Assembly: GCA_002686955.1 (NCBI GenBank)
Contig: NYZA01000045.1
Span: 1 to 11,930, forward strand
Reading direction: 5' to 3'
Length of the DNA stretch: 11,930 nt
DNA from: Gemmatimonadota bacterium
Lineage (GTDB): Bacteria; GCA-2686955
Positions 1,195 through 11,720 of this stretch are shown piece by piece. The position numbers were made by a program, and so were the translations under genes. Each line of letters starts with the position of its first letter. Position 1 is the stretch's first letter. Under the pieces are notes generated by a model that worked only from the letters and a program-made list of their open reading frames with translations, did not search any database and was not told the origin of the DNA.

Positions 1195-2371
1195 TACGCA
1201 GATCCTGCTCTTCGACCCGGTCAGCGGTATCTCGGGCGATATGGCAGTGGGTGCGCTGGTGGGCCTCGGCGCCGATCCGGACGCGCTGCGCGGCGTGTTG
1301 GCCACGCTGCCGGTGAGCGGATGGAGCCTCGAGTTCGTCGAAACGCGGGTTCAGGGGATCGCCGCGACCGACGCGCGGGTGCATGCGCCGGAAGAGTCGG
1401 TCTACCGGCACGTCTCCGATATCGAAGAGATCATCGCGGACGCGGACCTACCGGGCGCGGCGGCCGAGCGGGCGGGAGCGATCTTCCGAAAGCTGGCGGA
1501 GGCCGAGGCTAAGGTGCATGGGGTCGGCGTGGAGGAGATCCACTTCCACGAGGTCGGCGCTCTCGATGCGATCGTCGATATCGTTGGGGTGGCGGTCTGC
1601 CTGGAGCTGCTCGCCGTGAACGAAGTGCGGGTCACGCCGATCCATGTTGGCACCGGGACCGTTGAGTGCGCGCACGGGATCATGCCGGTTCCGGCGCCGG
1701 CGACCCTCGAGCTGCTTCAGGGCTTTCCGGTTGTGCACACCGGTTTGCCGGCGGAGCTGACCACACCGACCGGAGCGGCCTTGCTGGCGACCTGCGCGAC
1801 TCCGGTTCCGGAAGGGTGGCGGGGAACTCCTCTACGGGCCGCATACGGCGCCGGGAAGCGCACGCTCCCGGGTGGGCGGCCGAATCTGTTGCGAGCAACG
1901 CTGGTGAGTGCCGAGCCACCCTCCTCCGCGGTTTCGATCCTCGAGGCCAACGTGGACGATATGAGCCCCGAGCTCGTTCCCTACGTGATCGACCGCCTGC
2001 TGGAGGCAGGGGCGCTCGATGCCTTCGTCGTTCCGATCATCATGAAGCACGGCCGACCGGCCAGCCTCTTCACGGTGATCGCGGCCGCCGAGCGGGAGCA
2101 CGATCTGGCCCGACTGCTCCTCACCGAGACCACGACGCTCGGCGTGAGGACCCGCCGTTCCGATCGCCACGTCGTGAGCCGCGAGATCCGCCGGGTGACA
2201 ACACGCCACGGTACGATTGGCGTCAAGCTGGCCCGCCTGCCGGACGGCCGATGGCGCGCTGCTCCCGAGTACCGCGACTGCGCGGCGGCCGCGCGGGAGG
2301 CCGGCGTGCCCCTGCTCGACGTGATGGAGGAAGCGCGCCGGGCGGGGGAGGAGCTGGCCCGGCGGATCTAG
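1187..2371 (+). CDS. larC: LarC, nickel insertion protein for the NPN cofactor (single uninterrupted ORF)
   Basis: 394 aa with a GTG start. LarC is the CTP-dependent cyclometallase that inserts nickel into the bis-thiocarboxylated mononucleotide to complete NPN. Seen here: N-terminal [11 protein letters not shown] (about 10-20), [10 protein letters not shown], then [32 protein letters not shown] and [11 protein letters not shown] of the LarC1 part. The LarC2 part follows: [20 protein letters not shown], then [19 protein letters not shown]. In Lactiplantibacillus plantarum full-length LarC needs a programmed ribosomal frameshift between LarC1 and LarC2; here both halves are in one frame. The His-rich linker of many homologues is absent. 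The GTG at 1187 is preferred because it places the conserved LLFDPVSG strand at the usual distance from the N-terminus; the Shine-Dalgarno GGGA at 1174-1177 is weak. It overlaps larB by 8 nt, implying coupling. No larE or larA is visible. Confidence 0.93.
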
Positions 2372-4593
2372 ATTTCGTCGATGATCGCGTTGAAGGTCGA
2401 GCTGGGGCGCATCTGCGCATTCGCTAGCTCGGCGTCGGGCAGGTAGTAGCCGCCGATATCGACCGGCTCACCCTGGGCAGCCAACAGCTCTGCGACGATC
2501 TTCTCCTCGCTCCGCTGAAGCCGGCGGGCGACGGTCGTGAAGCGCTCCTTCATCGCCGCGTCCTGGTCTTGTTCGGCCAGAGCTTGGGCCCAGTACACCG
2601 CCAAATAGAAGGTGCTGCCTCGATTGTCGATCTCGTTGACCCGGCGGGAGGGGTAGCGCGCGTTCTCCAGATACGTGCCGATCGCTTGATCGAGAGTGCT
2701 CGCGAGAAGCGCCGCCTTTTCGTTGCCGTTCTGTCGGGCGCCCAACTCGAGCGAGGGCACCAGGGCGCAGTACTCACCGAGCGAGTCCCATCTGAGATGC
2801 CCCTCCTCGAGAAACTGTTGCACATGTTTGGGAGCCGAACCGCCGGCTCCGGTCTCGAAGAGCCCGCCACCGTTCAGGAGCGGAACGATCGAGAGCATTC
2901 GGGCACTGGTGCCCAGCTCCAGGATCGGGAAGAGGTCGGTCAGGTAGTCACGCAGCACGTTGCCGGTAGCCGAAATGGTGTCTTCGCCTCTGCGGATTCT
3001 ATCGAGACTGAGTCGCATCGCCTCCTGGGGACGCATAATGCGGATGTCGAGCTCCGTGGTGTCGTGGTCGTTCAGATAACGCTGCACCTTCTTGATGATC
3101 TCCGCGTCGTGACCTCGACGCTCGTCGAGCCAGAAGAGGGCGGGCGCGCCCGTCGCCCGGGCCCGGGACACCGCCAGCTTGACCCAGTCCCGGATCGGTT
3201 CGTCTTTCGCCTGACACATGCGGAAGATATCGCCCGGTTCGACGCTCTGCTCGAGAAGAGTGCAACCGGTGGAGTCGACGACGTGAATTGTGCCCACGCC
3301 GGGCGCTTCGAAGGTCTTGTCGTGCGATCCGTACTCTTCCGCTTTCCGGGCCATCAGGCCGACATTCGAGACACTTCCCATCGTCGCGGGATCGAACTGA
3401 CCGTTTTTCTTGGCGTCCTCGAGAATCTCGGAGTACATCGTCGCGTAGCAACGATCGGGCACAACGGCGATACAATCCTGTAGCTCGTCTTGGGTGTTCC
3501 ACATCCTTCCGCCGTCGCGTACGACGTTCGGCATCGACGCGTCGACGATGATGTTGTTCGGAACGTGCAGATTCGTGATCCCTCTACGGGAATCGACCAT
3601 GGCGAGCGCGGGTCGGGTCTCGTAGACCGCATAGATATCGGCTTCGATCTCCGCCTTCTTGTCGGCGGGCAGCCGTTCGAGCCTCTCGAGGATATCGGCC
3701 AGCCCGTTGTTGACGTTGGCCCCGATCTCGCGCAAGAGATCGGCGTGCTTCTCGAGCGCATCGCCGTAGTAGACCGAGACACAATGGCCGAACATGATCG
3801 GGTCGGAGACCTTCATCATCGTTGCCTTGAGGTGCAAGGATAGCAACACGCCGTCGCGCTTTGCGTCCTCGATCTGCTCGCCGTAGAAGCGCCGTAGCGC
3901 CGCTACATTCATCACGGCCGTGTCGATCACCTCGCCCTCTATGAGCGACAGTTTCTCTTTGAGAAGAGTGGCGTTTCCATCGAGGGCGATGAACTCGATT
4001 CGGACATCGTCCGCCCGCGTCATCGTCGTCGATCTTTCGCTCGCGAAGAAGTCACCGCTCTGCATGTGAGCGACCCGCGCCTTCGACCCCGATTCGGGCC
4101 AGGGTCGCATCATTCGATGCGGGTGCTTTTGCGCGAACTTCTTCACCGAAGCGGCAGGTCTTCGGTCGGAGTTCCCTTCGCGCAGGACCGGATTGACCGC
4201 GGAGCCGAGAACCACGGCGAATCGGCGCTGAAGCTGCCTCTCCTCGTCGTTGGCTGGCTCTTCGGGGTAGTCCGGCAGATCGTAGCCCTTCGACTGCAGC
4301 TCCTTGAGGGCGTCTTGGAGCTGGGGAAGGGTGGCGCTGATATTCGGGAGCTTGACGATATTTGCTTTGGGCGTCTTGGCGAGCTCGCCGAGCTGAGCGA
4401 GACAGTCCGGGACCTTCTGGTCGTCCGTCAGGCACTCCGGGAAGTTGGCGAGGATCCTCGCAGTGAGAGAGATGTCTTTGGCTTCGACGTCGACCTCGGC
4501 TCCACGGGTGAAGGCCTGGACGATCGGAAGCAGCGAGTACGTCGCCAAGGCTGGCGCCTCGTCGATTTTCGTCCAGATGATCTTGGCAGACAT
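2368..4593 (-). CDS. icd: Isocitrate dehydrogenase, NADP-dependent, monomeric type
   Basis: 741 aa, the normal length for the monomeric class (about 740). It oxidises isocitrate to 2-oxoglutarate and CO2 with NADP+ in the TCA cycle and needs Mg2+/Mn2+. Substrate-site residues fit the Azotobacter vinelandii enzyme (numbering from memory) with a constant offset: Ser131, Asn134, Arg138 and Arg144 in the [16 protein letters not shown] segment, Lys256 in [13 protein letters not shown], Asp351, Tyr421, and the metal-site pair Asp549/Asp553. His590, Arg601 and Arg650 match the residues that hold the NADP 2'-phosphate, so NADP specificity is expected. The ATG at 4593 is chosen because AGGAGA (4603-4598 on this strand) lies 4 nt upstream and MSAKIIWT is a typical start; an in-frame ATG 36 codons upstream has no family-like sequence. 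Single gene, transcribed alone, divergent from pyrR and convergent with larC. Confidence 0.97.
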
Positions 4594-4597
4594 GTTC

Positions 4598-4603
4598 TCT
4601 CCT
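4598..4603 (-). promoter_or_regulatory. Ribosome binding site of icd
   Basis: AGGAGA on the minus strand, 4 nt before the ATG at 4593. It decides between this start and the upstream in-frame ATG at 4701, which lies inside the proposed promoter and so would not be transcribed from it. Confidence 0.7.
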
Positions 4604-4672
4604 GGGGATCTACCGGGGTCCGCGCACAGATCGTGCGGATCGGGTCTTGAGTTCGCCACCGCCCAACCGCAA

Positions 4673-4701
4673 GTAATACAGCCGATCGGGTGGGAGTTCA
4701 A
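4673..4701 (-). promoter_or_regulatory. Candidate sigma-70-type promoter of icd
   Basis: On the minus strand TTGAAC (4701-4696) and TATTAC (4678-4673) are separated by exactly 17 nt, each matching 4 of 6 consensus positions, in an otherwise very GC-rich region. Transcription would start near 4666, giving a leader of about 70 nt before the icd ATG. The leader holds a small imperfect hairpin at 4623-4637 (CGCAC/GTGCG, 5-nt loop). Inferred from sequence only; the organism's sigma-factor preferences are unknown. Confidence 0.45.
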
Positions 4702-4844: not shown

Positions 4845-5414
4845 ATGGCGAGCCTGAACCGCAAGTCGATCATCATGGATGCCGCGGGCATCGAGCGGGC
4901 CCTCGCTCGGATCGCGCGCGAGATCGCGCGGAATGGACCCGGCGACGGTGAGCTCGCCATCGTGGGGATCCGCACGCGGGGGATCCCCTTGGGGGAGCGA
5001 TTGGCCAGGCAAATCGAAGAGATCCGAGAGGAATGTCCGCCCTTCGGCTACCTCGACATCACGCTCTACCGCGACGATCTGCAGTCGATCGGCTACCACC
5101 CGGTCGTGGGCGCGACACGGCTGCCCTTCGACATCAATGGGACGCATGTCGTCCTGGTCGACGACGTGCTCTACACGGGGCGAACCGTCCGGGCGGCGCT
5201 GAGCGTGCTCGTCGACTACGGCCGCCCCCGAACGATCCAACTGGCCGTCCTGGTCGATCGCGGTCATCGCGAGCTACCGATCAGGGCCGACTATGTCGGG
5301 AGCGAGGTGCCCACCTCTCGCGGAGAGGCGATTCAGGTGAATCTCGATGAGACCGACGGCGAAGAGGCGGTCTATCTCTGTGAGATTCCGGGGGAAGAGG
5401 GCACGACGCAGTGA
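4845..5414 (+). CDS. pyrR: PyrR, pyrimidine operon regulator / uracil phosphoribosyltransferase family
   Basis: 189 aa. The family binds pyr mRNA in a UMP/UTP-dependent way to attenuate transcription or block translation, and many members also convert uracil and PRPP to UMP. Seen here: a type I phosphoribosyltransferase fold with [14 protein letters not shown] (about 41-54), the PRPP loop [13 protein letters not shown] (102-114), and the C-terminal [16 protein letters not shown] and [11 protein letters not shown] segments typical of PyrR rather than of other PRTases. Length is normal. It is first in the operon and overlaps pyrB by 4 nt (GTGA, 5411-5414), the standard place for autoregulation of pyr genes. 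Whether it acts by attenuation, by translational repression or only as an enzyme cannot be decided, since no recognisable PyrR-binding loop was found in the leader. Confidence 0.95.
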
Positions 5415-6373
5415 AGCTCAATGATGCTCCCGGTCTCGATAGGAAGGACCTCCTCGGTCTCGAGGAGCTGTCTGAGCGTGAGATTCGGCTCATTCTCGAC
5501 ACAGCCAGGGAGTTTCGAGAGGTTCTGGACCGACCGATCAAGACCGTTCCGGCGATGCGCGGATTCACGATCGCGAATCTCTTCTACGAGAGCTCCACCC
5601 GCACGAGAATGTCGTTCGAGTTGGCTCAGAAGCGCCTCACCGCCGACAGCATCGGCCTTGCCGTGACCGCATCGTCGGTGAAGAAGGGCGAAAGCCTGCG
5701 CGACACCGCTCGGAATATCGAAGCGATGCGGGTCGACATGATCGTGATGCGACACTCGCAATCGGGTGCGCCGCACCGACTGGCCGCTCAGATCGACGCC
5801 CACGTCGTCAACGCGGGTGACGGTTGTCACGAGCATCCAACACAGGGTTTGCTCGATCTCTACACCCTCCTCGAGAATCTCGGCGACCTGCGGGGCAAGC
5901 GGATCGTCATCATCGGCGATATCGCGCATAGCCGCGTCGCGCGCTCGAATATTCACGGTCTGCGGCGAATGGGGGCCCAGGTCGGCGTTTGCGGTCCACC
6001 GACCTTGATCCCCGTCGGCATCGAGGATCTGGGGGTGACAGTCTACCCCACCATAGAAGAGGCCCTGGCCGAGGCCGATGCCATCAATGTGCTACGAATC
6101 CAGCTCGAACGGATCGGGGTGCCTCTTTTCCCATCCACACGGGAATACGCGCGCCTCTTTGGTGTCACTCCGGCACGGCTCGAGGTGGCGAAGCGCGAAG
6201 TTCTCGTGCTTCACCCAGGACCGATCAATCGAAACGTCGAGCTCGATTCCCGTGTCGCCGATGCTCCCGGGGCGGTCATACTCTCGCAGGTGACCAACGG
6301 TGTGGCGATTCGAATGGCGGTCACTTACCTCTTGGCCCAAAAGACCATGAAGGCGGCCCATGCACTCGCGTGA
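5411..6373 (+). CDS. pyrB: Aspartate carbamoyltransferase catalytic subunit
   Basis: 320 aa with a GTG start. It condenses carbamoyl phosphate with aspartate to N-carbamoyl-aspartate, step 2 of UMP synthesis; the active unit is a cytosolic trimer. Seen here: the carbamoyl-phosphate loop SSTRTR (61-66), the loop with SSVKKGESL (88-96; Lys92 likely reaches into the neighbouring subunit's site), RH at 114-115, HPTQGLLDLYT (142-152), GDIAHSRVARSN (169-180), RIQLER around 229-234 and HPGPINR (268-274) of the aspartate domain. No pyrI regulatory-subunit gene is present, so it is probably not allosteric through PyrI. The GTG at 5411 lies inside the pyrR stop region, with GAAGAGGG about 9 nt upstream. 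It overlaps pyrC by 14 nt; ATCase and DHOase form complexes in some bacteria (Aquifex), which would fit this coupling. Confidence 0.97.
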   Translation: MKLNDAPGLDRKDLLGLEELSEREIRLILDTAREFREVLDRPIKTVPAMRGFTIANLFYESSTRTRMSFELAQKRLTADSIGLAVTASSVKKGESLRDTARNIEAMRVDMIVMRHSQSGAPHRLAAQIDAHVVNAGDGCHEHPTQGLLDLYTLLENLGDLRGKRIVIIGDIAHSRVARSNIHGLRRMGAQVGVCGPPTLIPVGIEDLGVTVYPTIEEALAEADAINVLRIQLERIGVPLFPSTREYARLFGVTPARLEVAKREVLVLHPGPINRNVELDSRVADAPGAVILSQVTNGVAIRMAVTYLLAQKTMKAAHALA

Positions 6374-7649
6374 CCTACTGATCTCTGGAGGAAGGCTCGT
6401 CGACCCTGAAGCCGACGAACTGCGGCGCGCGGATCTGTTGATTCGAGACGGCAAGGTTGTCGCTCTCTCGCCGAACATCAACGCCGACGTGCCCGTGCTC
6501 GACGCAACGGGGCTAATTGTGTCTCCTGGCTTCATCGACCTACACGTTCATTTTCGGGAGCCGGGCCAGGAGTGGAAAGAGGATATCGACAGCGGGTCTC
6601 GCTGTGCCGCCGCCGGCGGATTCACGACTGTCTGCGCCATGCCAAATACCGATCCACCGCTGCACGATCAGGAGTCGGTTCGATTCGTAGTCGAACGTGC
6701 GCGAGAGGTCGGGCTGGTCGATCTGCACGTTGTCGGCGCGGTCACGACCGATCTCGCGGGAACAATCTTGTCTCCAATGGGGGAGATGGCGGCCGCGGGA
6801 TGCGTCGCATTCTCCGACGACGGCCGCCCGATTCTGGATTCCGGTCTCATGCGGCGCGCACTGGAATACTCGAGACAGTTCTATCTGCCGATTGTTCAAC
6901 ACGCCGAGGACACCGGATTGACCCGGGGGGGCGCCATGAATGAGAGCGCCATCTCGACGAAGCTCGGGTTGACGGGGATGCACTCCAGCGCCGAAGAGAT
7001 CGTCGTAGCCCGCGATCTGGCTCTGCTGCCGCTGACCGGGGGGCGTTACCATGTTGCCCATACATCCTGCGCCCGCACCATCGAGCTTTTGCGGCGTGCG
7101 CGGGCAGAGGGCCTGCCCGTCAGCTGCGAAGTGACGCCGCACCACCTCGCGCTCGACGAACAGGCCGTCTCGGATTGTGATTACGACGCTAACTACAAAA
7201 TGAACCCCCCTCTGCGCTCGGTGGTGGACCGTGAAGCGATGATCCAGGGCTGCGTCGACGGAACGATCGACGCAATCGCGACCGATCACGCCCCCCATCT
7301 TCCCGATGAAAAGGAGATCGGCTTCAGCGCCGCTCCGTTCGGCGTGATCGGACTTGAGACCGCCTTTTCAGTCGCCGCAACAACGCTTCTACCGCACATG
7401 AGCTTGCGCGATCTGTTGCGTCTCTTGACCACTGGGCCGGCATCAGTATTCGGATTCAAAGATCGAGGTCGCCTGGCACCGGGGCTGCGCGGAGATGTAG
7501 TGCTTTTCGATTCGGAATCCGAAGCTGTCTATTCCGTCGAATCTACGCACTCGAAATCTCGAAACAGCGCTTTTGACGGTATGCGGCTTCAAGGCAAGAT
7601 CGTAGCGACCGTGTTGGAGGGCCGGGTGGTGTTCGGCGAGTCGAGGTGA
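6360..7649 (+). CDS. pyrC: Dihydroorotase
   Basis: 429 aa. It cyclises N-carbamoyl-aspartate to dihydroorotate, step 3 of UMP synthesis. It belongs to the Bacillus-type (long, roughly 430 aa) zinc amidohydrolases: HVHFREPG with His62 and His64 as metal ligands, AFSDDGRP with Asp154, QHAED with His181, VAHTSC with His234 and TDHAPH with catalytic Asp309. All metal ligands are present, so it is an active enzyme rather than one of the inactive PyrC-like partners. NYKMNPPLR (substrate loop) is intact. The ATG at 6360 has AAGG 6 nt upstream and overlaps pyrB by 14 nt. The stop region contains the Shine-Dalgarno sequence of the next gene. Confidence 0.97.
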   Translation: MHSRDLLISGGRLVDPEADELRRADLLIRDGKVVALSPNINADVPVLDATGLIVSPGFIDLHVHFREPGQEWKEDIDSGSRCAAAGGFTTVCAMPNTDPPLHDQESVRFVVERAREVGLVDLHVVGAVTTDLAGTILSPMGEMAAAGCVAFSDDGRPILDSGLMRRALEYSRQFYLPIVQHAEDTGLTRGGAMNESAISTKLGLTGMHSSAEEIVVARDLALLPLTGGRYHVAHTSCARTIELLRRARAEGLPVSCEVTPHHLALDEQAVSDCDYDANYKMNPPLRSVVDREAMIQGCVDGTIDAIATDHAPHLPDEKEIGFSAAPFGVIGLETAFSVAATTLLPHMSLRDLLRLLTTGPASVFGFKDRGRLAPGLRGDVVLFDSESEAVYSVESTHSKSRNSAFDGMRLQGKIVATVLEGRVVFGESR

Positions 7650-7652
7650 TCG
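7644..7652 (+). promoter_or_regulatory. Strong Shine-Dalgarno that fixes the start of the TPR lipoprotein
   Basis: GAGGTGATC is a 9-nt match to the complement of the standard 16S 3' end. It spans the pyrC stop codon (TGA 7647-7649) and sits 8 nt before the ATG at 7661. It therefore favours 7661 over the in-frame GTG at 7646, which is part of this same sequence. Confidence 0.7.
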
Positions 7653-7660
7653 CGCGACCG

Positions 7661-9499
7661 ATGAAGGCAGCGGCGTTGAGCTTGCTGCTAGCTCTACATG
7701 TTGTAGGCTGTGTCTATTACAACACCTTTTACAATGCGCGGGCCCGCTATGACGAGGCGTTGGAGTCGAAGGCGCGACGAGCCGAGCGACGGATCGAAGA
7801 TGAGGAACGCTATATTCGGCAACTGCAGGATTGGCTGGCGGCGGGCGGCTCTGGAGACGATGTTCTAGCGCGAATCGAGGCGGGAGTCGAAGACTCTCTG
7901 GGGCGAGCCGACTCACTCAAGGCAGTGCTGATCGATTCTCTCGGAATCGCGACACCTCTCTCTCCGCCCGACTCTTTGGCCCTGGCCGAGGCGTTCGCGA
8001 AGCTCGATTCGACTCTGCGGGAGATGGAGGAGGAGGATGACGACGAGGAAGAAGAGGCGGAAACAGCTCAGGCCAATCCACGGCCACGAAGGCCCCGGAC
8101 CAGCGAGAACAGGGAGCTCATTCCGAGCGAGGAGCGGCTGCTCGATGCCTGCATCACCAAATGCGCGAAGGTGATCTCCCTCTATCCCGAATCGAAGTGG
8201 ATCGACGACGCGGTGTTTCTTATGGGTAAGGCGCTTTACGAAAAACGTTACTACCCCGACGCGCATACCAAATTCGTGGAGCTACGGCTCTACTACCGGG
8301 ACAGCCCTTTCCTCGAAGAGGCGCTCCTCTACGAGGGTCGCGGTCTGCATGCCATGGCGCGGGGAGTCGATGCCCGCGAAATCTGGCAGAGATTGGTCGA
8401 CGAGGCCGTGGACCCGCGGGTTCGCAGAGCGGCCGGGGTAGAACTCGCGGAATCGATCGGCACCGACGGTGATCACGGGAGCGCCATCCGGGTCTACAGA
8501 AGGCTCCTCGATCAGCCGAATACAGAGGGCCGTTCAGACCTCTGGATACGACTCGGCGGCAGCCTGGCCGCCGCGGGAGAATTCGATTCCGCGGTGGCCG
8601 CTTTCGATCGCACACTCAAAGAGGGGGGGGGAGTCGGAGAGCGATTCAGGGCGATCTTCGAAGGAGCTCGGGCGCTCGATGCGGCGGGCAGACCCGAGCA
8701 GGCGGCCAGGCGCTTGCGGAAGGTCGCGAGCGATCAGCGCCACTTCCGAGACGCAGCCAGGGCTCTGCTCGAGCTTGCCAGAATCGAGACGGCACAGGGT
8801 GAAACAGATGTTGCCCTCGAAACCTACCGGGAGATACTGCATGCATATCCCGGCACCGATGAAGGGGCAGAAGCCCTTCTGGCACTCGCACGATTGCACC
8901 GAGGAGTGCTGAACGATCCGTTGCGCGCCAAACGCGCCCTCGCGCTTCTTCTCGAAGAGAACCCTGATTCCGAAGCAGGGAAAACCGCTCGCGAGGAGCT
9001 GCGCGATCTCGACCGCTACCTGAGCCTGAAGCGGGATGCCGCGAGGGCCCGGGGAGCTTCGGCGCAGAGGGCACGATTCCTTCTGGCTGAGCATCTCCTG
9101 GTTGTCGAGGATCGCCCGGAGGACTCCTACCTCGGATACGCGGATCTGATCTCGCAATACCCGAGCACACCCTGGCGACCCAGGGCCGACATGGCCATGG
9201 CCTGGATCCTGAAGGGACCGCTGAGTCGGCCGGATAGCGCCGATTCGATCTATCGCGAGGTCGCGGAGCGCTATTCCGGTACCCATGCGGCCGCCGTGTC
9301 CTCCGCCGCAATCGGTCTCCCAGTCCCTCCGGTCACGATTGTCGATCAGGAGCCGCTCGAAGAGGATGCGACAAAAGAGCCGCCGGCCGCTACGGAAGCG
9401 GAGTCGAGTGAGGCGAAGTTCACGCCCCTGCTCCCCAATGACGAAGATGATGCGCTCCGTGCGCGCAGGCGGCAACGTACCGAGCCGGAGCCGAAATGA
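7661..9499 (+). CDS. TPR-containing lipoprotein (BamD/YfiO-like repeats), function unknown
   Basis: 612 aa. A short signal peptide (Lys2, hydrophobic 3-15) ends in the lipobox VVGC with Cys17, so it should be lipidated and, lacking Asp at +2, probably outer-membrane anchored. Directly after Cys17 come VYYNTFYNA and an Arg/Glu-rich helix (about 28-58). An almost purely acidic stretch of 14 residues (121-134) and a Pro/Arg linker follow. From about 155 to 545 the sequence is helical repeats of TPR type, e.g. ALYEKRYYPDAHTKFVEL, SLAAAGEFDSAVAAFDRTL and ALETYREILHAYPGTDEGAE, as in BamD/YbgF-type scaffolds. The tail (about 560-612) is disordered and charged. It is much longer than BamD (about 245 aa), so equivalence is not claimed; it could serve in outer-membrane assembly or secretion. 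It sits between pyrC (11 nt) and pyrK-pyrD (4-nt overlap). The exact function is unknown. Confidence 0.85.
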   Translation: MKAAALSLLLALHVVGCVYYNTFYNARARYDEALESKARRAERRIEDEERYIRQLQDWLAAGGSGDDVLARIEAGVEDSLGRADSLKAVLIDSLGIATPLSPPDSLALAEAFAKLDSTLREMEEEDDDEEEEAETAQANPRPRRPRTSENRELIPSEERLLDACITKCAKVISLYPESKWIDDAVFLMGKALYEKRYYPDAHTKFVELRLYYRDSPFLEEALLYEGRGLHAMARGVDAREIWQRLVDEAVDPRVRRAAGVELAESIGTDGDHGSAIRVYRRLLDQPNTEGRSDLWIRLGGSLAAAGEFDSAVAAFDRTLKEGGGVGERFRAIFEGARALDAAGRPEQAARRLRKVASDQRHFRDAARALLELARIETAQGETDVALETYREILHAYPGTDEGAEALLALARLHRGVLNDPLRAKRALALLLEENPDSEAGKTAREELRDLDRYLSLKRDAARARGASAQRARFLLAEHLLVVEDRPEDSYLGYADLISQYPSTPWRPRADMAMAWILKGPLSRPDSADSIYREVAERYSGTHAAAVSSAAIGLPVPPVTIVDQEPLEEDATKEPPAATEAESSEAKFTPLLPNDEDDALRARRRQRTEPEPK

Positions 9500-11292
9500 A
9501 ACAAACACTTGCGCTTCATTCCGCCACGGTCGTCGAGCGGGCCGACCAAGGGGGATTCTGCGTCATTGCGCTTCACGCACCGGGAGTCGCCGTCTTGGCT
9601 CAACCCGGTCAGTTCATCGAGGTGCTGCCGCCGCACGAGTCCGGCGAGTTCTTTCTGCCGCGCCCAATGAGCATCATGTTGGCCGAACCGGCTACAGGGA
9701 ATGTTCACTTCGCATTCAAGGAGGTCGGCCGCGGCACGCGTCGCCTGGCGGCGTTGCGAATCGGCGATCGCGTGAGGACCTTCGGACCGCTCGGCCGCGG
9801 CTGGTCCATACCCGAAGCGAATCAGACACTTTTGCTCGTCGGTGGGGGCGTCGGCTTTCCGCCGCTATATTTCCAGGCATGGAAACAGATCTCGGATGGA
9901 GGAAGCCGGAGCTCACCGGTGTTCATTATCGGGGCGCGTTCGGGCTCCGAGCTTCTCTACGTTGATCGCATCCGCGCGCTGAATGTCGAGGTCGAGATCG
10001 CAACCGACGATGGATCGCGAGGTTTCCACGGCAGCGCCGTCGAACTGATGGAAGAGATCTTGGAGAGACGCAACGAGGTCGAGTGGAGAGTTCAGGCCTG
10101 TGGCCCCACCCCGATGCTGGCCGCGCTTGCCCGCGCCGTCTCCGAGCGAGGTCTGAGTGCCGAAGTGAGCCTGGAAACACCGATGGCCTGCGGCGTGGGC
10201 GCTTGCATGGGCTGCGCCGTACCGCTGGATCCCGAAGGAACGTTGAAAGACAAACTGGCGATCCTCTGTGAGCAGGGTCCGGTCTACGATGCCGCCGAGC
10301 CCGATTGGCCGGCGTTGATGCAGCAAGTGCGGCCGGCATCCGCCGATCAAGGACAAGAAAGAAGTGTGGAGCTTTCCACCGAATTCGCTGGAATCGAGAT
10401 GGCCAATCCCGTGGTTCTCGCTAGCGGCACTTTCGGCTACGGAGCGGAGTACGGAAGAGTCATCGATCTGGACCGCGTCGGGGCGGTGATCACGAAATCG
10501 GTGTCGGAAAAACCACGAATCGGGAATCCTGCCCCCAGAATCCGAGAGTTGCCGACCGGCATGTTGAACGCCATCGGGTTGCAGAATGTCGGTGTGGATC
10601 GATTCATCCAGGAAAAACTGCCGCTATTCGACGGGCTCTCGACTCGCCTCATCGTCAACGTGGTCGGGCACGACGAAGATGAGTATCTGCGTGTGTTGGA
10701 TCGCCTCGCGGGGCACTCGCGCATCGATGGGATCGAGCTGAATCTCTCCTGCCCCAATGTCGAAGGAGGGATGCGGATCGCCACCGATCCGGCGACTATC
10801 GAGCGTGTCGTACATGCCGCCCGTGAGTGTTGCGATTTCCCATTGATCGTCAAGTTGACGCCAAATGTGACGGACATCGCTTCGGTTGCGCGAGCCGCAG
10901 AGGCTGGTGGTGCCGACGCCATCTCTTTGATCAACACCCTCGTGGGGATGGCGATCGATCTCGACACCCGCCGCCCCTGGATTTCGCGTGGCACCGCGGG
11001 GTATTCAGGTCCCGGAGTGAAGCCAGTCGCGCTGGCGATGACCTGGCTGGTGACTCAGGCGGTCTCGATTCCGGTATTGGGGGGAGGGGGGATCGGCACG
11101 GCCGAGGATGCGTGTGAGTTTCTTGTCGCCGGAGCATCGGCAGTATCGATCGGAACCACCAGCTTCGTCGATCCGGGGGCGGCGATTCGAATCGCCGACG
11201 GGATCGCGAAATGGCTCCGCGGGCAAGGGTGTCGAAGCGTGACCGAAGTGGTGGGAACGCTTCGTTCCTGGCCGGGAGCGGCGGGAGCATGA
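9496..11292 (+). CDS. pyrK-pyrD: Fused dihydroorotate dehydrogenase B: PyrK electron-transfer domain + PyrD catalytic domain
   Basis: 598 aa, equal to PyrK (about 260) plus PyrD (about 310) and a short linker. It would oxidise dihydroorotate to orotate (step 4 of UMP synthesis) and pass electrons to NAD+. PyrK part, 1 to about 270: LPRPMSI with Arg56 (FAD), VGGGVGFPP (NAD/FAD domain), ACGPTPML, and a [2Fe-2S] site with Cys232, Cys237, Cys240 and Cys258 in MACGVGACMGC and LCEQG. The last gap (17 residues) is slightly longer than in Lactococcus (14, from memory). Linker, about 271-290. PyrD part, 291-598: VLASGTFGYG, ITKSVS, NAIGLQNVG, ELNLSCPNV with catalytic Cys419 (the cysteine marks class 1), VKLTPNVTD and VLGGGGIGTAEDA for FMN phosphate. 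No stop or frameshift lies at the junction. GGAG at 9487-9490 precedes the ATG. It overlaps both neighbours by 4 nt (ATGA). Confidence 0.95.
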   Translation: MKQTLALHSATVVERADQGGFCVIALHAPGVAVLAQPGQFIEVLPPHESGEFFLPRPMSIMLAEPATGNVHFAFKEVGRGTRRLAALRIGDRVRTFGPLGRGWSIPEANQTLLLVGGGVGFPPLYFQAWKQISDGGSRSSPVFIIGARSGSELLYVDRIRALNVEVEIATDDGSRGFHGSAVELMEEILERRNEVEWRVQACGPTPMLAALARAVSERGLSAEVSLETPMACGVGACMGCAVPLDPEGTLKDKLAILCEQGPVYDAAEPDWPALMQQVRPASADQGQERSVELSTEFAGIEMANPVVLASGTFGYGAEYGRVIDLDRVGAVITKSVSEKPRIGNPAPRIRELPTGMLNAIGLQNVGVDRFIQEKLPLFDGLSTRLIVNVVGHDEDEYLRVLDRLAGHSRIDGIELNLSCPNVEGGMRIATDPATIERVVHAARECCDFPLIVKLTPNVTDIASVARAAEAGGADAISLINTLVGMAIDLDTRRPWISRGTAGYSGPGVKPVALAMTWLVTQAVSIPVLGGGGIGTAEDACEFLVAGASAVSIGTTSFVDPGAAIRIADGIAKWLRGQGCRSVTEVVGTLRSWPGAAGA

Positions 11293-11720
11293 ATCTCTCG
11301 CGATTCACCTTCATCGTCGCGCTGATCGCTATACTCGTCGGGTGCGGGAGCTCGGTTCGCTACGGGTCACCCGATCGCACGCGCTTCGAAGGGGATCGGA
11401 TCTTCGAGCCGGGCGAAGAGATCATCGGCTGGCGCGAGCAGGGCCAGGCGAGCTACTACGGGAAGAAGTTCCACGGACGACGAACCGCCAACGGAGAAGT
11501 CTACGATATGTACGGCATCTCCGCGGCGCACCGAACCTTGCCTTTCGGGGCCCGCGTGCGTGTGACGCATTTGGCCAACGGCCGCACGATCGAAGTCCGG
11601 ATCAACGATCGAGGTCCCTTCATAGAAGGCCGAATCATCGATCTCTCGTACGGGGCCGCGCAGACACTGGGGATGGTGCGCGAAGGTGTCGTGCCGGTGG
11701 AGATCGAGGTGGTGCGGTAG
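11289..11720 (+). CDS. rlpA: RlpA-like lipoprotein (double-psi beta-barrel septal/peptidoglycan protein)
   Basis: 143 aa. The signal peptide ends in lipobox LVGC with Cys19, so it is a probable lipoprotein. The remainder is one RlpA double-psi beta-barrel: GQASYYGKKFHGRRTANGE, AAHRTLPFGARVRV, VRINDRGPF and IIDLSYGAAQTLGM. Glu70, His81 and Asp107 have the same spacing (11 and 26) as Glu120/His131/Asp157 of Pseudomonas aeruginosa RlpA (from memory), a lytic transglycosylase acting on glycan strands without stem peptides. The C-terminal SPOR domain that targets RlpA to the septum is missing, as in many short homologues, so activity and location are inferred. The ATG at 11289 overlaps the pyrK-pyrD stop by 4 nt; GGGAG at 11274-11278 lies 10 nt upstream. 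It is the last gene of the operon. Confidence 0.92.
   Translation: MNLSRFTFIVALIAILVGCGSSVRYGSPDRTRFEGDRIFEPGEEIIGWREQGQASYYGKKFHGRRTANGEVYDMYGISAAHRTLPFGARVRVTHLANGRTIEVRINDRGPFIEGRIIDLSYGAAQTLGMVREGVVPVEIEVVR

Follow-up and report, generated by a model that had tools for sequence, protein, structure and literature searches.

The window, that is, the whole stretch of 11,930 nucleotides analysed here, is contig 45 of a genome assembly of 4.28 Mb and 270 contigs. A cluster of pyr genes on its forward strand (Table 1) ends in an uninterrupted frame, pyrKD, which runs from the ATG at 9496 to the stop codon at 11290-11292 with no internal stops. The ATG of pyrKD overlaps the stop of the preceding gene (ATGA). 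This preceding gene, which is TPR lipoprotein-like, overlaps each of its neighbours by 4 bases and is an envelope-type gene within the pyr cluster; its counterpart in the related genome G001 (L070, 4046-5962) shows the same arrangement. Downstream lies an RlpA-family gene (11289-11720), whose most likely start, the ATG at 11289, shares bases with the stop codon of pyrKD (ATGA); the start called by the program for this frame (11211) falls inside pyrKD. On the reverse strand a monomeric NADP-dependent isocitrate dehydrogenase gene (2368-4701; TIGR00178, 1199 bits) is convergent with an upstream larC-like gene. A scan of the window with Rfam gave zero matches, so pyrR is not preceded by any known leader RNA.

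Table 1. Features of the pyr cluster and of the pyrKD product in the window, with the basis of each assignment.
Feature	Position	Strand	Basis
pyrR (pyr regulator / uracil phosphoribosyltransferase)	4845-5414	+	NCBIfam NF003549, 228.5 bits, cut-off 138
pyrB (aspartate carbamoyltransferase)	5411-6373	+	NCBIfam NF002032, 388.7 bits, cut-off 263
pyrC (dihydroorotase)	6360-7649	+	TIGR00857, 416.8 bits, cut-off 279
TPR lipoprotein-like gene (YbgF/PorW-like repeats), between pyrC and pyrKD	7646-9499	+	kept in G001
pyrKD, PyrK-PyrD fusion of 598 aa, predicted class 1B dihydroorotate dehydrogenase	9496-11292	+	one frame, Pfam and NCBIfam, same fusion in G001
PyrK-like half, FAD-binding, NAD-binding and [2Fe-2S] domains, residues 1-268	9496-10299	+	domain/profile matches, structure alignment, motifs
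[2Fe-2S] domain, ligands C232, C237, C240, C258	10174-10299	+	PF10418; alignment to L. lactis PyrK
Linker, residues 269-291	10300-10368	+	divergent in sequence, length differs between fused proteins
PyrD class 1B half, residues 292-590	10369-11265	+	Pfam, NCBIfam, alignment to L. lactis PyrD

Domain searches placed both families in this one frame, as the preliminary description had claimed for a single fused PyrK-PyrD polypeptide with a linker of about 20 residues; the linker was found to comprise about 23. Pfam DHO_dh matched residues 293-573 of pyrKD with 239.5 bits, and DHODB_Fe-S_bind (PF10418) matched residues 227-268 with 37 bits, each exceeding its gathering score. The PyrD half reached 379.3 bits with NCBIfam PRK07259/NF005574 (dihydroorotate dehydrogenase; cut-off 269) and 329.6 bits with TIGR01037 (cut-off 270). 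The closest solved structures were PyrD of L. lactis DHODB (5ue9_A, 1ep1_A) for the PyrD half and, among others, DHODB PyrK (1ep3_B) for the PyrK half. An AlphaFold model of pyrKD from a 9-row alignment was weak (mean pLDDT 62.7) and poor in the PyrK half; the barrel of this weak model matched DHODB PyrD chains best.

The motifs RPMS (residues 56-59), a form of the FAD motif RPxS, and GGGVG (116-120) are visible in the PyrK half. Alignment to L. lactis DHODB confirmed that the cofactor residues are retained in both halves, as had been proposed. The four cluster ligands aligned, in order, with C226, C231, C234 and C249 of L. lactis PyrK, and in the alignment to 1ep1_A C419 (10750-10752) corresponded to Cys135, the catalytic cysteine of PyrD. 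In the same alignment K334 (10495-10497) corresponded to Lys48, whose role is described by Combe et al. 2006, as cited in PMC8097209. K334, C419, the four cluster cysteines and RPMS were all invariant across the aligned fused proteins, which represent four lineages.

Within the phylum, the comparison covered a single further genome, G001, which belongs to the same family and to another genus. It carried a PyrK-PyrD fusion too (606 aa, no stop), and the order larC-pyrR-pyrB-pyrC-TPR lipoprotein-pyrKD was common to both genomes. The halves of the two fused proteins were 47% and 70% identical. The preliminary description had allowed that its reading would fall if close relatives all had separate pyrK and pyrD genes, and this relative was fused.

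As the assembly is fragmented into many contigs, a stop or frameshift between pyrK and pyrD genes that are really separate could have been lost by an assembly or consensus error. However, the in-frame fusion recurs in an independent genome of another genus, where the linker differs and is longer (46 residues between the last cluster cysteine and the start of PyrD, as compared with 31 in pyrKD). With two independent assemblies carrying the fusion, loss of a stop by error is very unlikely, the least probable of the alternatives weighed here, and on the evidence of these sequences the fusion is regarded as real and not as an artefact. Other explanations concern the protein product. Internal initiation at the GTG at 10366-10368, which is codon 291 (V291) and lies where a separate PyrD would begin, would yield free PyrD in addition to the fused chain. 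This GTG had been put forward as a remnant start without a good Shine-Dalgarno sequence before it. The latter observation was correct, but the remnant start found no support, since G001 has Thr at the corresponding position; the other aligned fused proteins have neither Met nor Val there. A Thr in G001 and the lack of a good Shine-Dalgarno sequence leave a conserved internal start unsupported, and two products from this gene appear improbable. Cleavage of the linker after translation, leaving the enzyme as the usual heterotetramer, would be compatible with a linker that is hydrophilic, divergent and variable (30 to 46 residues from the last cluster cysteine to the start of PyrD). The aligned linkers nevertheless showed no conserved cleavage site, and such processing is considered highly improbable.

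A further alternative is a related flavoenzyme with another substrate, e.g., dihydropyrimidine dehydrogenase or an NfnA-like electron-transfer enzyme. None of the curated NCBIfam PyrK models reached its cut-off with the PyrK half, though most of the model length was matched (best NF000799 with 135.5 bits, cut-off 314; NF000796 with 131.7 bits, cut-off 224), and NfnA-type chains were as near to this half as PyrK by score (106 and 104 versus 103 bits). At the residue level PyrK is favoured, because in the aligned NfnA-type chains Asp replaces the first cluster Cys and the Arg of RPxS is absent, whereas pyrKD has Cys at this position, like PyrK, and retains RPMS. The N-terminal half is PyrK-like by its motifs and its partner, not by curated score. 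Moreover, the PyrD half exceeds the cut-off for dihydroorotate dehydrogenase, the gene sits in the pyr cluster, and a separate PreA is encoded elsewhere in the genome. A different substrate is therefore strongly doubted. Because the PyrK half falls below the curated cut-offs, annotation pipelines may score pyrK as missing in such genomes.

DHO_dh matches in the source genome comprised pyrKD, PreA (dihydropyrimidine dehydrogenase; 627 bits, cut-off 335) and one weak match below the cut-off. No class 1A or class 2 dihydroorotate dehydrogenase was found in this 84.5%-complete genome, so that pyrKD is probably its sole orotate-producing enzyme; because of this degree of completeness, another dihydroorotate dehydrogenase could be missing from the assembly.

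The distribution of the fusion was surveyed in 386 diverse genomes by matches spanning both halves. Spanning matches free of stops occurred in the family of the window and in families f121 (two genomes), f160 and f12, while in eleven genomes the spanning match contained one or more stops, i.e., adjacent split genes. Searches within the phyla found fused genes in at least 6 genomes of 4 genera for f121, in one genome (G174) for f160 and in at least 14 genomes for f12; these counts are lower bounds because strict score limits were used. The fusions of all three families (21 further loci) were each verified to carry both domains in a single reading frame. Thus the search for proteins covering the PyrK and class 1B families, which the preliminary description had suggested, yielded fusions in three further unrelated families. 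One genome of f12, G012, had split pyrK and pyrD, and the named relatives examined were all split or too distant. A second domain-wide sample, which largely overlapped the first, gave no additional fused family. The fusion is rare yet recurrent among bacteria, with at least three other lineages. Some fused frames were longer: in G121 (L049) the open frame around the fusion comprised 1025 aa, with about 450 putative residues ahead of the PyrK half, and four fused loci of genus g334 in f12 (L059, L060, L063 and L065) had a longer N-terminal part and a first half whose match to PyrK was poor and began only near query residue 139.

In split pairs pyrK was located upstream of pyrD in 32 of 32 cases, which agrees with the earlier statement that the fusion follows the usual gene order. 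One of these loci (L025) was scripted as "downstream" owing to an early-beginning stop-to-stop frame of PyrD and is upstream by homology position. The gap between the genes was mostly within 100 bases, and nine of the 32 pairs shared one frame with an intervening stop. The usual order and the pairs in the same frame make the proposed origin by stop loss plausible, although they do not show it; the fusions probably arose when neighbouring pyrK and pyrD genes lost the stop that separated them. In a tree built from 60 PyrD domains, four changes of state between fused and split were needed, and one clade of all fused PyrD was recovered in 0 of 200 bootstrap trees. On this tree the AU test rejected the grouping of all fusions in one clade (p 9.5e-7, with a log-likelihood difference of 158). 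For the PyrK halves, a quickly built tree gave five changes; the split G012 was basal within f12 on the PyrD tree and nested on the PyrK tree. The exact number of changes is unsure because deep nodes were poorly supported, and some changes may be later splits (reversals) and not new fusions. The best reading of the trees is more than one origin. We consider it fairly probable that this is a recurrent, convergent single-chain class 1B dihydroorotate dehydrogenase, which arose by fusion at least three to four times in bacterial lineages not related to one another and was long kept, possibly with a changed quaternary structure in which a homodimer of fused chains replaces the heterotetramer.

The pyrKD product is predicted to be a class 1B (NAD-dependent) dihydroorotate dehydrogenase with two normal subunits in one polypeptide (probability about 0.9). 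Its function is likely that of an ordinary NAD-dependent enzyme of this class with a fixed 1:1 stoichiometry. By comparison with the family, the C-terminal barrel would oxidise dihydroorotate at its FMN, with C419 as the base and K334 at the flavin, and the electrons would travel from FMN through the [2Fe-2S] cluster and then the FAD, both in the N-terminal half, to NAD+. The halves are probably packed as in Lactococcus DHODB, the linker probably only tethers them and fixes 1:1 synthesis, and the barrel halves probably continue to form dimers. For the Lactococcus enzyme, PyrD and PyrK are described as stabilising one another, and PyrD is apparently needed for incorporation of the cluster into PyrK (PMC8097209); these are reasons why tethering could be favoured.

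Full-text literature searches, with coverage mostly outside subscription papers, found no description of a PyrK-PyrD fusion, and PMC4177761 does not mention fusions. A Geobacter "pyrKD" was rejected as a reported fusion, being operon shorthand in a table. Sequence databases very probably contain such proteins, so far without comment. The fusion provides natural evidence for PyrK and PyrD acting as a 1:1 unit, and it offers a ready-made single chain for kinetic and structural studies of electron transfer among FMN, [2Fe-2S] and FAD. That the fusion originated repeatedly, in phyla with little sampling, shows how adjacent operon genes turn into multidomain enzymes.

Among known systems, pyrKD is a variant of a known enzyme and not a new system. 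L. lactis DHODB (class 1B, PyrD and PyrK heterotetramer, PDB 1EP1-1EP3) shares with it both halves, the cofactor residues, the order of PyrK before PyrD and the pyr gene cluster. However, L. lactis DHODB consists of two subunits from two genes, whereas pyrKD is one chain, which makes it a variant of DHODB rather than an ordinary member. The NfnA/SudB-type subunit of NADH-dependent ferredoxin:NADP oxidoreductase (PDB 5JCA, 4YLF) has the FAD/[2Fe-2S] architecture in common with the N-terminal half, but differs in the cluster ligand and the arginine noted above, and its partner is GltD-like (PMC8097209). Pig dihydropyrimidine dehydrogenase (DPD, PDB 1H7W) resembles pyrKD in that a DHODH-like FMN barrel is covalently joined to an NAD(P)H electron-transfer part, although its substrate differs from the one predicted for pyrKD and its electron-transfer part is unrelated to PyrK (PMC8097209).
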